Assembly (NCBI GenBank): GCA_018302205.1
Contig: JAGVZZ010000040.1
Coordinates: 1 to 32,151 of the forward strand
Length of the DNA: 32,151 bases
Origin: Candidatus Woesearchaeota archaeon
GTDB lineage: Archaea; Nanobdellota; Nanobdellia; SCGC-AAA011-G17; GW2011-AR17
Direction: 5' to 3'
In this document: piece by piece, positions 2,491 through 18,058 of the stretch
How the letters are laid out: every line of letters starts with the position of its first letter
Position numbering within the stretch: position 1 is the first letter of the stretch
Translations under genes and position numbers: made by a program
The notes under the pieces: generated by a model
The model's input: only the letters and a program-made list of their open reading frames with translations
The model's database searches: none
What the model was told of the DNA's origin: nothing

Positions 2491-2611
2491 GTAAAGATTA
2501 TGTTAAGATCATGTTAAGACAACGTAAAGATACATGTGTGGTTTGTTAATATTAACGTAGTCTTAACGTAATCTTTACAACGTCTTAACAATGTCTTAAC
2601 AATGTCTTAAC
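2491..2611. repeat. 11-bp iteron array, family A: dyad of 4 forward (GTWAAGAY) and 6 reverse (RTCTTAAC-type) boxes
   Basis: Forward boxes at 2491, 2502, 2513, 2524; reverse boxes at 2549, 2560, 2571, 2582, 2593, 2604; exact 11-bp step in each run. Centre holds the perfect palindrome GTTAATATTAAC (2545-2556). Confidence 0.93.
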
Positions 2612-2662
2612 AATAATTATCGACGGTATCTAAAAATATTTATAAAAAAATGAAAATAAGTG

Positions 2663-2714
2663 ATCTTAACTCAATATTAACAAGGTCTTAACAAAGTCTT
2701 AACAATATCTTAAC
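2663..2714. repeat. 11-bp iteron array, family A, third run of 5 reverse boxes
   Basis: atcttaac 2663, atattaac 2674, gtcttaac 2685, gtcttaac 2696, atcttaac 2707; exact 11-bp step. Confidence 0.92.
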
Positions 2715-2735
2715 AAAACTCGGCATGACGGATCT

Positions 2736-2937: not shown

Positions 2938-3663
2938 AAAGGGATCAAAAAGAGATTTTTGATCATTTGATAAACTTCTAAGAGATAAAAGCTTAGACAT
3001 TAGGTTTAAAGAACGAAATTCCTTAGAAATTGAGACATAAACCATACCATTCCTATTTTTTTCTTTAACAATAGGGGTGCCTTTTCGGATTAATTCTGAG
3101 ATATAATCCCTAATTGAACTTGAGGAAAGATCTAAAAATTGAGCTAATTCTTGGTATGTAGCAGGGGCTTTATTCTGTTCTTCAAGGCTATAAATAGCTG
3201 AAAACACCTTAAATTCTCTATTTGTAAGAGAGAAAAAGGTCTTATTTAGGTCTGCTTTTAACTCCTCAAAATCAATATTATGAAGGGTGCCGGAGTGTCG
3301 AAGGGGTGTCGAAGGGGTGTCGAGGTGTCGTTGAGGTGTCGCAAGGAACCCCTTTGTTTCCTTTGGAGATACTCTGTCGGAGTTACGAACAAGGGTTTTT
3401 TCCTCTGAAATTGATCCATTTTGGTCTAATTCTTCTAATAATGGCTTATTTACCTTATCTAGAAACTCTTTCTCTATTAAATCCTCTTTTTTTTCTAATT
3501 TGTCTTCTAAATCTGATACCCTCTTGTTTAAAAGTTCTATTTTGGAATTAAGGGTTATAATAAACTCTCTGTCTGCTCTTAACTCCTTTTCTAGAAGGGC
3601 TATATGATCTTTAACTCTACGAAATGATTCCTTTATAGCCTCATCATTATGAAGAATACTCAT
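2932..3663 (-). CDS. Coiled-coil protein with C-terminal winged-helix domain (putative DNA-binding protein)
   Basis: N-terminal coiled coil (RVKDHIALLEKELRADREFIITLNSKIELLNKRVSDLEDKLEKKEDL), low-complexity linker (TPQRHLDTPSTPLRHSGT), C-terminal wHTH (LTNREFKVFSAIYSLEEQNKAPATYQELAQFLDLSSSSIRDYISELIRKG). Confidence 0.85.
   Translation of the reverse strand: MSILHNDEAIKESFRRVKDHIALLEKELRADREFIITLNSKIELLNKRVSDLEDKLEKKEDLIEKEFLDKVNKPLLEELDQNGSISEEKTLVRNSDRVSPKETKGFLATPQRHLDTPSTPLRHSGTLHNIDFEELKADLNKTFFSLTNREFKVFSAIYSLEEQNKAPATYQELAQFLDLSSSSIRDYISELIRKGTPIVKEKNRNGMVYVSISKEFRSLNLMSKLLSLRSLSNDQKSLFDPFN
3287..3341. repeat. Family B boxes (GTGYCG) inside the CDS 2932..3663
   Basis: GTGCCG 3287; GTGTCG 3295, 3306, 3317, 3325, 3336; steps 8, 11, 11, 8, 11 bp; boxes fall in all three codon phases. 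Confidence 0.9.
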
Positions 3664-3714: not shown

Positions 3715-3780
3715 GTGTCGGAACAATGCCGGAACCCCGTCGAAAGGTTGTCGAAGGGGTGTCGGAATAGTGCCGGAACT
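3715..3780. repeat. 11-bp iteron array, family B (GTGYCGGAANN), 6 boxes
   Basis: gtgtcggaaca 3715, atgccggaacc 3726, ccgtcgaaagg 3737, ttgtcgaaggg 3748, gtgtcggaata 3759, gtgccggaact 3770; exact 11-bp step, about 52 bp upstream of the ATG at 3663. Confidence 0.93.
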
Positions 3781-3783
3781 AAT

Positions 3784-4227
3784 TTATCCTATGTAATCCC
3801 CAGCTTTTCTTTTCTTAACGGCAGTATTAACCGCAGCCTGTTGCAGTCTCGGTAATACAATATGTGGTGGAAGATTAGCTTCTTGTTCAAAGAATAAAGC
3901 TTTTACGTTACACCTAATGAATATGTTATTCAAAACATCCTTACTTATCTCTGGACTGAACTTTTTAGTCTTCTTCCATTCTTTGTAAATCTTCTCAAGC
4001 TCATCACGAGGACCTGCATATAATAAATCTCCTCCAAGAGTTATGCTACCTTGATCAGTTTCATAATCAACGTTATATTCAAAGGAGAACTTTAGAAATA
4101 GATCTTTCTTGATTTCCTCTTCTTTAAGGTTACTAATCTTAATAGAAGTTTTGACTTTTAATGGAGCCTCGATGGCTTTCTTTTTTTCAACATTTATTTT
4201 ATTGAAAGCAAATGATATTATTGGCAT
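3784..4227 (-). CDS. Conserved-looking hypothetical protein, possibly SecB-like fold (weak)
   Basis: 147 aa, beta-rich N-terminal half (KFSFEYNVDYETDQGSITLGGDLLYAG), EWKKTKKFSPEISKDVLNNIFIRCNVKALFFEQEANLPPHIVLPRLQ; the LPP.I.LPR ending is reminiscent of SecB-like proteins. Confidence 0.6.
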   Translation of the reverse strand: MPIISFAFNKINVEKKKAIEAPLKVKTSIKISNLKEEEIKKDLFLKFSFEYNVDYETDQGSITLGGDLLYAGPRDELEKIYKEWKKTKKFSPEISKDVLNNIFIRCNVKALFFEQEANLPPHIVLPRLQQAAVNTAVKKRKAGDYIG

Positions 4228-7230: not shown

Positions 7231-7650
7231 CCCTCCCCCTCACCATGATTTCCTATGGAACTCTAATAATAAAATATGTCATATACTTACTTTTATTTAT
7301 ATAATTTAATTTCCTATGGAAAAAAGAATAATAAAGAAGATTAATAGACGACAAAATGGGCTTGTTTAAGGTTAGTTTTTTTGAAAAAAAGTTATAATAC
7401 TCAATTGTATTGAATTCAATGGTTTTAAGCTCTATTATTATTATTATTATTATTATTTATATTATATATATTATATGTTTTTTGGTATTATATTATATTA
7501 TATTATATTATAACATATCATAATATATATATTACTTAAACTACTTTTTTCTTATTCTACTCGAAATAAAGGGGTAGATTTATAAATAAGCCAAGTCTAA
7601 ACATATCATATTCGAGTTAGAATGAGTTCCATTGGAAATAGAGGGCTGGG
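7231..7650. other. Predicted replication origin (oriC): ORB-like boxes flanking an A/T-only unwinding region
   Basis: ORB-like sites in inverted orientation: minus strand gagTTCCATAGGAAATcatggtgaGGGGGaggg (7231-7263) and plus strand gagTTCCATTGGAAATagaGGGctGGG (7624-7650); mini-box atTTCCTATGGAA (7309-7321); A/T-rich 7434-7540; immediately upstream of orc1/cdc6. Confidence 0.85.
7434..7540. repeat. A/T-only low-complexity region with (TTA)n and (TATTA)5 microrepeats, candidate duplex unwinding element
   Basis: tattattattattattattattattta... and tatta x5 (about 7487-7511); almost no G/C over ~100 bp. Confidence 0.8.
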
Positions 7651-7704: not shown

Positions 7705-8922
7705 ATGGAAAAAGAGGAAAGTAAACTTACAGGGTATTTTGAGAATTATTTAAAACAAGAACCCTTATTTATTGATAAAAAAGTTTTACAATCTAATTAT
7801 TATCCTGAAACTATTTTACATAGAGAAGAACAAATTCAAAAAGTTGCTGCTATAATGGCTCCTGCATTAAGAGGAGAGAAACCTTCTAATATGTTTATTT
7901 ATGGAAAAACAGGAAGTGGTAAGACTCTTACTATCAAACATGTTACAGAAAATATGATGGAAATAGCTAAGAGGAATGATTTAAAGGTTAAAATTTTTTA
8001 TTTGAATTGTAAGTTAAAGAGAGTTTCTGATACTGAATATAGGTTAATAGCTGAGTTAGCAAGGGGATTGAATACTGAAATTCCTGCAACAGGTTTGCCA
8101 ACTGATGAAGTTTATAAAATGTTTATTGATACTTTAGAAAAACAAAATATATTAATGATAATTATTTTGGACGAGATTGATCAGTTAGTTTCAAAGGCCG
8201 GTGATCAGATACTTTATAGTTTGACTAGAATCAATTCTGAACTTAAACAAAGTCAAATATCTATTGTTGGAATTTCAAACGATTTAATGTTTACAAATTA
8301 TTTAGATCCAAGAGTTAAAAGTTCATTATCTGAAGAAGAGTTAGTGTTTCCTCCATATAATGCTATTCAACTTAAAGCAATTTTAAACGGAAGAGCTGAG
8401 AAAGCTTTTAGGCCTTCAGCAATTGATCAGGGTGTTTTAGAAAAGTGTGCTGCATTTGCTGCAAGAGAACATGGGGATGCAAGAAGGGCTTTAGAACTTT
8501 TGAGAGTTGCTGGAGAATTAGCTGAAAGAAATGGGTTCACAAAAATTACTATTAATTCTTTAGATGAAGCTGAAGAAAAAATTGAGAAGGATAGAGTTCA
8601 TGAAATTATCACAACTCAACCAAAACAATCACAAGTTGCATTGTTAGCAATCTTTGAAACTGTTAAGGCTGCTGGGGCTAGGCCAGTATTTACTGGGGAT
8701 ATTTATGAATTGTATAAGGATTTATGTAATCGAACAAAGATTAGACCTTTAACTCAAAGAAGGATTTCTGATTTGATTGCTGAATTGGATATGTTAGGGA
8801 TTATTAATGCTAAAGTGATTAGTAAAGGAAGATATGGTAGAACAAGGCAGATTGGTTTAGGAATACCATTATCTGCTGTTCCTCAACTTGAAGGTATTTT
8901 AAGGGAATCTTTAACATTATAA
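7705..8922 (+). CDS. cdc6: Orc1/Cdc6 replication initiator
   Basis: AAA+ with Walker A GKTGSGKTLT, Walker B IIILDEIDQL, sensor 1 IVGISND, sensor 2 GDARRAL, C-terminal wHTH. Confidence 0.97.
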   Translation: MEKEESKLTGYFENYLKQEPLFIDKKVLQSNYYPETILHREEQIQKVAAIMAPALRGEKPSNMFIYGKTGSGKTLTIKHVTENMMEIAKRNDLKVKIFYLNCKLKRVSDTEYRLIAELARGLNTEIPATGLPTDEVYKMFIDTLEKQNILMIIILDEIDQLVSKAGDQILYSLTRINSELKQSQISIVGISNDLMFTNYLDPRVKSSLSEEELVFPPYNAIQLKAILNGRAEKAFRPSAIDQGVLEKCAAFAAREHGDARRALELLRVAGELAERNGFTKITINSLDEAEEKIEKDRVHEIITTQPKQSQVALLAIFETVKAAGARPVFTGDIYELYKDLCNRTKIRPLTQRRISDLIAELDMLGIINAKVISKGRYGRTRQIGLGIPLSAVPQLEGILRESLTL

Positions 8923-16543: not shown

Positions 16544-16742
16544 TTTACTTCTCTCCCATTCACTCTCTTTTTCTCTATTTTATCGATAATATAATGGTTG
16601 TATTTAAACATTGTGCTGTAGCTATTGTAAAGTGGTTTTTCGAGAGTATAATTTCGATTACAATCATTCGGTTGAAAAGGGTAAACTGTTATGCTTCGAA
16701 ATTTTGGAAATGTTTTTAAGGAAATGGGTTTTATTTAAGAGT

Positions 16743-18058
16743 ATGATTGATATCAGACTTGTTAGGGAGCATCCTGAGTTGTTCTTGAAATGTTATAAGT
16801 TTATGAAAAAACCTCAGTTGATCGATTCTTTTAATGAACTTGTTGATAAAGATAAAAAATTAAGAAGTATTAAGGGGGATTTGGATCTGCTAAGGAGTTC
16901 TAGGAATACTTTATCTGAAGAGATTAACAAGTTGAAGAAGGTTGGAAAGGATATTGCTGGTGTTATTAAGAAAGTCAAGTCATTACCAGAGGATATTAAG
17001 AAGAAAGAAGAGGAATATAGTTCTGTTGAAAACAGAATGAATGAGATTCTGTTGATATTACCAAACTTGATTCATGAAAATGTGCCTTATGGTGAATCTG
17101 AGAAGAATAATGTTCAAATTAAGAAGTCTGGGAAGTTGCCTAAGTTTGATTTCCCTGTAAAGAATCATGTTGAAATCCTTGAGAATTTGGGGTTAGTTGA
17201 TTTTGAAGCTTCATCTAAAGTAATTGGAAATGGTTTTTATTATTTGAAAGGGGATTTAGGATTATTGAATCAAGCATTGATACGGTTTGCTATTGATTAT
17301 ATGGCTGAGAAGGGGTATGAGTATATTGAACCCCCATTAATGTTGAAGAAAGAAATATTGATGGCTGCTGTGGATAAGAATGTTTTTGAGAATTCTGTTT
17401 ATCAAATTGAAAATGAGAATGCTGCGTTGATTGGGACTAGTGAGTTTGCAGTCTTAGGGATGCATGTGAATGAAGTTATTGATGTTCCAAAGAAATATTT
17501 TGCATATTCTATGTGTTTCAGACAAGAAATTGGGGCGCATGGGATTAATGAGAAGGGATTATGGAGAACGCATCAGTTCAATAAAGTTGAGCAGTTTATT
17601 TTTTGTTCAAAAGAGCAATCATGGAAGTTTTATGATGAGTTGTTGAAGAATACTGAAGGGATCTTTCAAGCTTTAGAATTGCCTTACAGAGTTATTGAAA
17701 TATGTACTGGTGATTTGGCTCTGTGGAAAGCTAGGAGTGCGGATGTTGAAGTTTGGAGGCCTACATTGAATGCTTATGGTGAAGTTGCTTCATTATCTAA
17801 TTGTACTGATTATCAAGCTAGGAACTTGAATATTCGTTATGAAGGGAAAGAAGGAAGAGAAAAGCTAGGAACTTGAATATTCGTTATGAAGGGAAAGAAG
17901 GAAGAGAAGTTGTGCATACTTTGAATAATACTGCTTTGGCCACTTCACGGGCTATGGTTGCAATCGTTGAAAATAATCAGCAAAAAGATGGGACTGTTTT
18001 AATTCCGAAAGTTTTGCAGAAGTATATGGGTGGAAAGAAAGTTTTGAAGAAAGTTTAG
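16743..18058 (+). pseudogene. serS: Seryl-tRNA synthetase, disrupted by a 47-bp tandem duplication (frameshift)
   Basis: MIDIRLVREHPELF N-terminal coiled coil; motif 2 FRQEIGAHGINEKGLWRTHQFNKVEQF; motif 3 [37 protein letters not shown] lies in another frame after the duplication. Removing 47 bp leaves 1269 nt, exactly 423 in-frame codons including stop. Confidence 0.93.
17815..17908. repeat. Perfect 47-bp tandem direct duplication
   Basis: aagctaggaacttgaatattcgttatgaagggaaagaaggaagagaa at 17815-17861 and again at 17862-17908. Confidence 0.98.

Follow-up and report, generated by a model that had tools for sequence, protein, structure and literature searches.

The stretch of DNA analysed here (the window; 32,151 bp, GC content 32%) makes up an entire contig of a 645-kb, 71%-complete genome (G000) of a Candidatus Woesearchaeota archaeon. 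On its reverse strand it carries a XerA-like tyrosine recombinase gene, a conserved neighbour recognised by domain match and synteny (224-1072), the gene of a 199-residue protein, P1 (1850-2449), that of a 243-residue protein, P2 (2932-3663), and that of P3 (147 residues, 3784-4227), a further conserved neighbour to which synteny and a structure model assign a SecB-like fold. On the forward strand, a gene for Cdc6/Orc1 (7705-8922; open reading frame and synteny), followed by those for the small and large subunits of PolD, marks replication initiation in the same conserved block; Cdc6/Orc1, the PolD subunits and LonB are presumed identities, named from their sequences in the window. The block Cdc6 - PRC - LonB - (wHTH) - P3 - P2 - P1 - recombinase persists throughout the order, and the same Cdc6-to-recombinase block, with inversions, is found in more distant families of the class. 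In the relative G007 the assembly breaks inside P1, and the two contigs involved (L035 and L036) otherwise continue the conserved block. The model of P3 is of low confidence and resembles SecB (Foldseek E 8e-4), with no match in Pfam; a SecB-like chaperone adjoining a replication block is unexpected. Elsewhere in the window, a perfect 47-bp tandem duplication (17815-17908), which is either recent or an assembly error, divides the gene for seryl-tRNA synthetase between two frames (16740-17876 and 17873-18058).

Upstream of P1 lies an array of short boxes (array A, total extent 2491-2717, 227 bp) with the consensus RT(C13/A2)TT(A12/T3)AC (n=15). Read toward P1, it is composed of five direct boxes, a 48-bp AT-rich spacer, six direct boxes, a short spacer and four inverted boxes, after which come the BRE/TATA and the start codon. 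The inverted boxes adjoining the P1 promoter form run 1 (2491-2534, reverse strand; GTWAAGAY on the forward strand), with starts at 2491, 2502, 2513 and 2524. Run 2 (2549-2614, forward strand) contains the six direct RTCTTAAC boxes, starting at 2549, 2560, 2571, 2582, 2593 and 2604, and run 3 (2663-2717, forward strand), beyond the AT-rich spacer, contains the five that start at 2663, 2674, 2685, 2696 and 2707, the final box unit ending at 2717. Orientation switches at a pivot palindrome, GTTAATATTAAC (2545-2556), which contains the last run 2 box in the direction of P1 and is also present in G007, G011 and G012. The spacer between runs 2 and 3 holds TTATCGACGGTA (2617-2628), a copy of a conserved palindrome, TTTATCGWCGATAAA. 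The original prediction, made from the bare sequence, had described fifteen boxes in three runs with an exact 11-bp period, located between two coiled-coil/winged-helix genes and abutting the core promoter of the gene at 1850-2449. Scanning with a box matrix located all fifteen where they had been placed, each step being exactly 11 bp, and the array is indeed intergenic, between P1 and P2, and abuts the BRE/TATA of the 199-residue protein's gene.

Chance is most unlikely to produce such a pattern. For the 482-bp intergenic region the lag-11 score reaches 37, whereas 200 dinucleotide shuffles averaged 0.6 at lag 11 and peaked at 11 when all lags were considered. The box-matrix scan of the window returned 16 matches in array A, the sixteenth being the palindromic partner at 2545-2556, and 14 lone matches outside it, and each of the 12 same-strand pairs of boxes spaced by 11 bp falls within array A. 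Likewise, a search of the 645-kb genome for 11-bp box pairs (at most two mismatches) found 12, all in array A and none outside, although the absence of further sites is provisional because the genome is 71% complete. A regulon-type operator was rejected as an explanation, as no second site was found in the genome. Regarding geometry, the claim that every site faces the same side of the DNA stands roughly for boxes inside a run and fails between runs. At 10.5 bp per turn, each 11-bp step adds about 17 degrees of rotation, the opening box of run 3 comes 59 bp (about 5.6 turns) after the closing box of run 2 and run 1 is inverted, so that a common DNA face exists within a run only. The cooperative loading or filament formation envisaged in the original prediction is plausible, and such a slowly winding array would fit a superhelical protein-DNA complex like that of ParR/parC (PMC5016525).

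The position of the array suggests a first role for it. Array A starts at the base next to the presumed BRE position of P1 (2481-2490, reverse strand), which is followed by the presumed TATA box TTAATAAAT (2472-2480). TTAATAAAT is kept in G007, G011, G012, G003 and G004, and three inverted boxes are likewise found in G011, G012 and G007. Because the array ends at these presumed promoter elements, P1 is likely to autoregulate through it. Autoregulation might also be all there is to the array: P1, bound to a large cooperative operator, would keep its own level steady and otherwise act in an unrelated membrane process. In relatives, too, the array directly adjoins the P1 promoter, and this position is equally expected of a simple autoregulator. 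However, the only detectable sites of P1 are at its own promoter, so that nothing else would be regulated, and fifteen boxes over 227 bp, two runs of which lie more than 60 bp upstream of the TATA box, are more than repression needs. An ordinary regulator would also not be expected to stay linked to the Cdc6/PolD block in many families, and we regard a plain operator as an unlikely explanation of the locus.

Phased arrays are not restricted to this genome. In the regions upstream of P1 from 74 genomes, the pooled lag-11 score amounts to 478, against 20-211 at other lags (next-best lags 21-22, about 210; flanking lags 10 and 12, about 100), and the mean lag-11 score is 6.5, compared with 0.36 for 3494 control windows taken at these loci. 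Individually, lag 11 reaches p<0.01 in 35 of the 74 genomes; the other 39 regions miss this threshold, many of them peaking at 19-22 bp or having palindromic boxes. The boxes themselves are spelled differently in different lineages (GTTAAGAT, GTTACTAAC, AACTTAACAAT, AACTAAACAAT, TGTCTATAAAC, CGTCGGTAACG, CGTCTACGAAC, CGTTCGGTAAA and others). Across the order, array geometry is thus conserved while box spelling changes. It had been anticipated that the syntenic locus of relatives might keep the phasing while its spacers drift; the 11-bp phasing does recur across the order, but it is the whole box, and not the spacers alone, that drifts. Phased boxes away from the P1 upstream region were found neither in G092, G093 and G095 nor in the 660 kb read of G078, and since this agrees with the result for G000, P1 appears to have no detectable regulon.

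In many genomes the palindrome TTTATCGWCGATAAA is kept upstream of P1, usually between about -50 and -180, and it is more conserved than the boxes. Of 95 regions upstream of P1, 28 contain YCGWCGRWAA and 18 contain TCGWCGRTAA, where chance predicts 0.017 and 0.009 occurrences per 450 bp, respectively. Another copy of TTTATCGWCGATAAA is located at 1171-1183, upstream of the XerA-like gene. Moreover, copies of another element, AAARTGAGAGTT (AACTCTCAYTTT), lie between P2 and array A in roughly 73-bp repeats (about 2771-2935 in the window) and recur near the same spot in many families of the order. This element is possibly the site of a third protein or terminator-like.

P1 is single-copy in this genome and is present in 15 of the 18 genomes of the family and in 91 of the 104 genomes of the order, including 46 of the 47 high-quality ones. 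It is therefore a core gene of its archaeal order. Remote relatives occur in 185 of 382 genomes sampled across the phylum, and a distant homologue lies in a Pacearchaeota record, from which a DPANN-type archaeon is presumed here. A contig scan gave two weak loci, one of them probably spurious. Iterons of a mobile element were rejected as a description of array A, because the P1 gene is core and single-copy and its fixed chromosomal block includes the XerA-like recombinase itself. Sequence and profile comparison divides P1, the presumed array-binding protein, into an N-terminal patch (MFGWFKKK), a coiled coil and a C-terminal winged helix. In the patch, which reads e.g. MVWWLFKKK in another P1 protein, W/F make up 36% of residues 2-8, compared with 5% overall, and K/R-rich residues follow; 66 of 74 P1 proteins have at least two W/F among their first 12 residues, and the corresponding N-terminal W/F figure for P2 is 3%. 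This composition suggests that the patch, although short, resembles a membrane anchor. The C-terminal winged helix aligns with that of P2 (hhalign probability 95%, E 4e-8), and where P1 relatives match DNA-binding models, these are models of winged helices. Family assignments for P1 were found in none of Pfam, NCBIfam and PHROGs, and neither Pfam nor NCBIfam gave a match to a replication-initiator family. The AlphaFold model of P1, made without a deep alignment, is poor (pLDDT 46). AspA is among the few PDB sequences that match the P1 profile at E<0.01, a marginal match (E about 0.007) over 43 residues only. In P1 relatives from distant families of the class (L212-L229) and in L011, repeats inside the gene encode KQTAVQ.VQTAVQTAVQT, and their DNA seems similar to upstream repeats of the GTTTGGACAGC type, with a best lag that is sometimes 12 bp. 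In these distant relatives, binding sites may be written into linker-coding DNA.

P2 has an array of its own. The protein combines a coiled coil with a winged helix (HTH_11, 4.5e-7), and upstream of its gene lies a second set of boxes at an 11-bp step (array B, 3716-3781, reverse strand; TGTCGGAAnnn/TGCCGGAAnnn); lag 11 also leads upstream of P2 in several relatives. Boxes of the P2 type are found within the P2 coding region as well (3288-3345, reverse strand; steps of 11, 11, 8 and 11 bp), and there encode the repeat ATPQRHLDTPSTPLRHSGT. The upstream P2 boxes and the encoded peptide repeat both differ in other lineages (GGACACACTCT / GYSLPGYSLDGYSL). With its array, P2 would be a parallel element of the locus with a specificity of its own. 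In G006 (L040) no P2 gene separates P3 from P1, yet P1 and box-like upstream repeats are there, so that P1 and its sites do not always come with P2.

Which protein binds array A is best indicated by the comparison of close relatives. G000 and G009 mostly show 70-97% DNA identity as far as the P2 stop codon and, further on, in the recombinase gene; from just after that stop codon through array A and P1 they are much less alike. The winged helices of P1 are 29% identical between the two genomes and those of P2 89%. In the tree of P2 and P3, G000 groups with G009 and G007 with G010, whereas the tree of the P1 winged helix places G009 with G010 and G000 with G007, G011 and G012. AU tests reject the opposite arrangement in both data sets (p 9e-5 and 2e-4). 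The type of box follows P1, being GTTAAGAT-type in G000, G007, G011 and G012 and GTTACTAAC-type in G009 and G010. In two sister pairs, P1 and box type thus differ jointly and the flanking genes do not. In a set of 42 genomes, boxes show almost no similarity where winged-helix identity is below 50% and grow more similar beyond that value, and a partial Mantel test of box similarity against winged-helix identity, given coiled-coil identity, yields p 0.0005. Box similarity correlates with coiled-coil identity too, the co-variation of whole P1 being partly phylogenetic, and the argument therefore rests on the sister-pair trees. By co-variation, the 199-residue protein, one of the two neighbours considered in the original prediction, emerges as the best candidate binder, and these comparisons make it very probable that P1 binds array A. 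The simplest account would be that P1 and array A are inherited and exchanged as one cassette. A plain operator would agree with these observations as well, as autoregulator-operator pairs can co-evolve and be swapped as a cassette. P2, which adjoins array A and has a winged helix related to that of P1, was rejected as the binder: its own upstream box family, TTTCGACAC-type, is the same in G000 and G009 despite their different array A, and box-like repeats precede P1 in G006 without P2. That P2 or another neighbouring winged-helix protein binds array A in place of P1 is consequently highly improbable.

The chromosomal position of the locus must also be considered. Archaeal origins are usually located upstream of cdc6, and array A lies within about 5 kb of this gene. 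The GC skew of this contig and of three relatives switches to positive values at cdc6 or close to it, a moderately informative signal, and in G078 (nearly complete, single contig; 660 of 737 kb read) the hand-detrended cumulative skew has its minimum near cdc6. The array, together with its AT-rich spacer, might thus constitute the replication origin or part of it, with P1 as an accessory initiator or a handcuffing copy-number regulator, as in iteron plasmids. The proximity to cdc6, the change in skew in the region, the presence of iterons on both sides of an AT-rich spacer and the conserved TTTATCGWCGATAAA element between the runs all agree with this. However, upstream of cdc6, in the usual place, there is a separate AT-rich TATTA tract (7433-7534, 20 imperfect copies) that is a candidate origin unwinding element, and P1 combines a membrane-anchor-like N-terminus with the lack of any initiator family match in Pfam and NCBIfam. 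An origin made of these iterons is therefore improbable in our judgement.

A related possibility is a partition complex dependent on SMC or ParA, in which P1 or P2 would play the role of ParB by loading SMC or by stimulating a MinD/ParA-like ATPase encoded elsewhere. Such proteins are available, since SMC-family matches were obtained in 12 of the 12 genomes tested and MinD/ParA-like matches, outside the block, in 11 of the 12. The origin-proximal position and the weak similarity to AspA point in the same direction. Against it, the conserved block contains no recognised ParA or SMC gene, and domain searches of P1 and P2 found no ParB or CTPase domain. We give this arrangement little weight as a separate explanation; it is also compatible, as a variant, with the origin-linked tether favoured here.

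P1 has no other detectable site, is a core protein encoded beside an initiation gene and has an N-terminus that looks like a membrane anchor, and the nucleoprotein array is therefore taken to be the functional object itself. A protein that regulated nothing but itself would be functionless, from which we infer a tether. The preferred explanation is a centromere-like, origin-linked chromosome tether, drawn from architecture, location and conservation and held with about even confidence; that chromosome tethering or segregation is the main function of P1 is, on the same kind of evidence, close to a balanced proposition. Against this reading stand the lack of an NTPase gene beside P1 and the presence elsewhere in the genomes of SMC and usually a MinD/ParA-like ATPase, so that the chromosome may be segregated by another system. 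In the proposed mechanism, the C-terminal winged helix of P1 would recognise RTCTTAAC boxes, a step strongly supported by the comparison of relatives, and this binding would also control P1 transcription, in keeping with the position of the array at the BRE/TATA. The 11-bp step would then let many P1 dimers align side by side via their coiled coils, producing a continuous nucleoprotein array at a single origin-proximal locus. Finally, the clustered N-terminal W/F-K/R patches would bind the cell membrane by avidity, and newly replicated origin regions would thereby be tethered and kept apart. Such a complex would be a centromere-like chromosome anchor, either motor-free or motor-assisted.

In its logic, the P1 array resembles RocS, pSK1 Par, ParR/parC and AspA, but it is a demonstrated member of none of these systems, each having at least one defining feature that is lacking here. 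RocS of Streptococcus pneumoniae contains an HTH, a coiled coil and a membrane-binding amphipathic helix, and its membrane binding needs oligomerisation (PMC11500499). Like P1, RocS and pSK1 Par join a DNA-binding HTH/wHTH to a coiled coil in a single protein without an NTPase of its own. HTH, coiled coil and membrane-helix-like segments are all suggested in P1 by sequence; however, their order is reversed, the membrane patch being N-terminal and the winged helix C-terminal, and among 27 P1 members no Pfam match indicated DUF536 or MerR-type wHTH homology, nor was any other homology to these proteins detected. P1 differs further in being archaeal and in having a discrete 11-bp iteron array at one locus. 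In type II systems (plasmids R1 and pB171), 10-11-bp direct repeats are arranged in sets near the promoter of the binding protein, as in array A; in R1, parC has 11-bp repeats in two groups of five, which flank the promoter (PMC4949242; PMC9426499). Specificity types that act as incompatibility groups would be another feature shared between ParR/parC and the P1 system. In contrast, ParR is a ribbon-helix-helix protein that works with the actin-like ParM, whereas P1 is a winged-helix protein and no ParM gene was recognised next to it, its conserved neighbours being P2, P3, XerA-like, LonB, Cdc6 and PolD.

Systems based on winged helices come closer in fold. TubR is a small protein, without an N-terminal patch and coiled coil of the P1 kind. 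In the type III TubR/tubC system, this winged-helix protein binds clustered direct repeats upstream of its own operon and is also a repressor (PMC5016525). A winged-helix protein and clustered direct repeats upstream, which P1 is predicted to bind, are features of the P1 system too; no gene for a tubulin-like TubZ GTPase was recognised next to P1 in the conserved block. AspA of the archaeal plasmid pNOB8 is a centromere-binding winged-helix protein with a site upstream of its own gene, and forms a continuous helix on DNA (PMC5120986). Like P1 it is an archaeal winged-helix protein, and the P1 profile matches it marginally, as noted above. However, AspA binds one 23-bp palindrome and then spreads, is about 95 residues long without coiled coil or membrane patch, and is encoded in an operon with ParB and ParA, and an aspA-parB-parA-type operon was not found in the conserved block around P1. 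Lastly, SegAB of Sulfolobus is, as proposed here for P1, an archaeal chromosomal segregation system with sites upstream of its own genes. It differs in that the ATPase SegA is encoded in the operon and SegB is unrelated to P1 in sequence; genes for SegA, SegB or a ParA-type ATPase were not recognised adjacent to P1 in the conserved block, the MinD/ParA-like genes being elsewhere.

In the literature searched, no comparable system is described for this archaeal group. We tentatively propose that the locus may represent a chromosomal centromere-and-tether system not described before, conserved across a DPANN order and with related genes through the wider class, in which a membrane-anchored coiled-coil winged-helix protein would build a one-turn-phased array beside the origin. 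Protein and array would exist in many mutually exclusive specificity types, swapped as cassettes between close genomes, like plasmid incompatibility groups but chromosomal. With a protein, a site and a location, the locus is a concrete and consistently placed candidate, small enough for in vitro work with a 199-residue protein and a 230-bp fragment. Moreover, with its fixed 11-bp geometry, its freely changing boxes and its two sister-pair swaps, it would provide a natural series of protein-DNA specificity switches.
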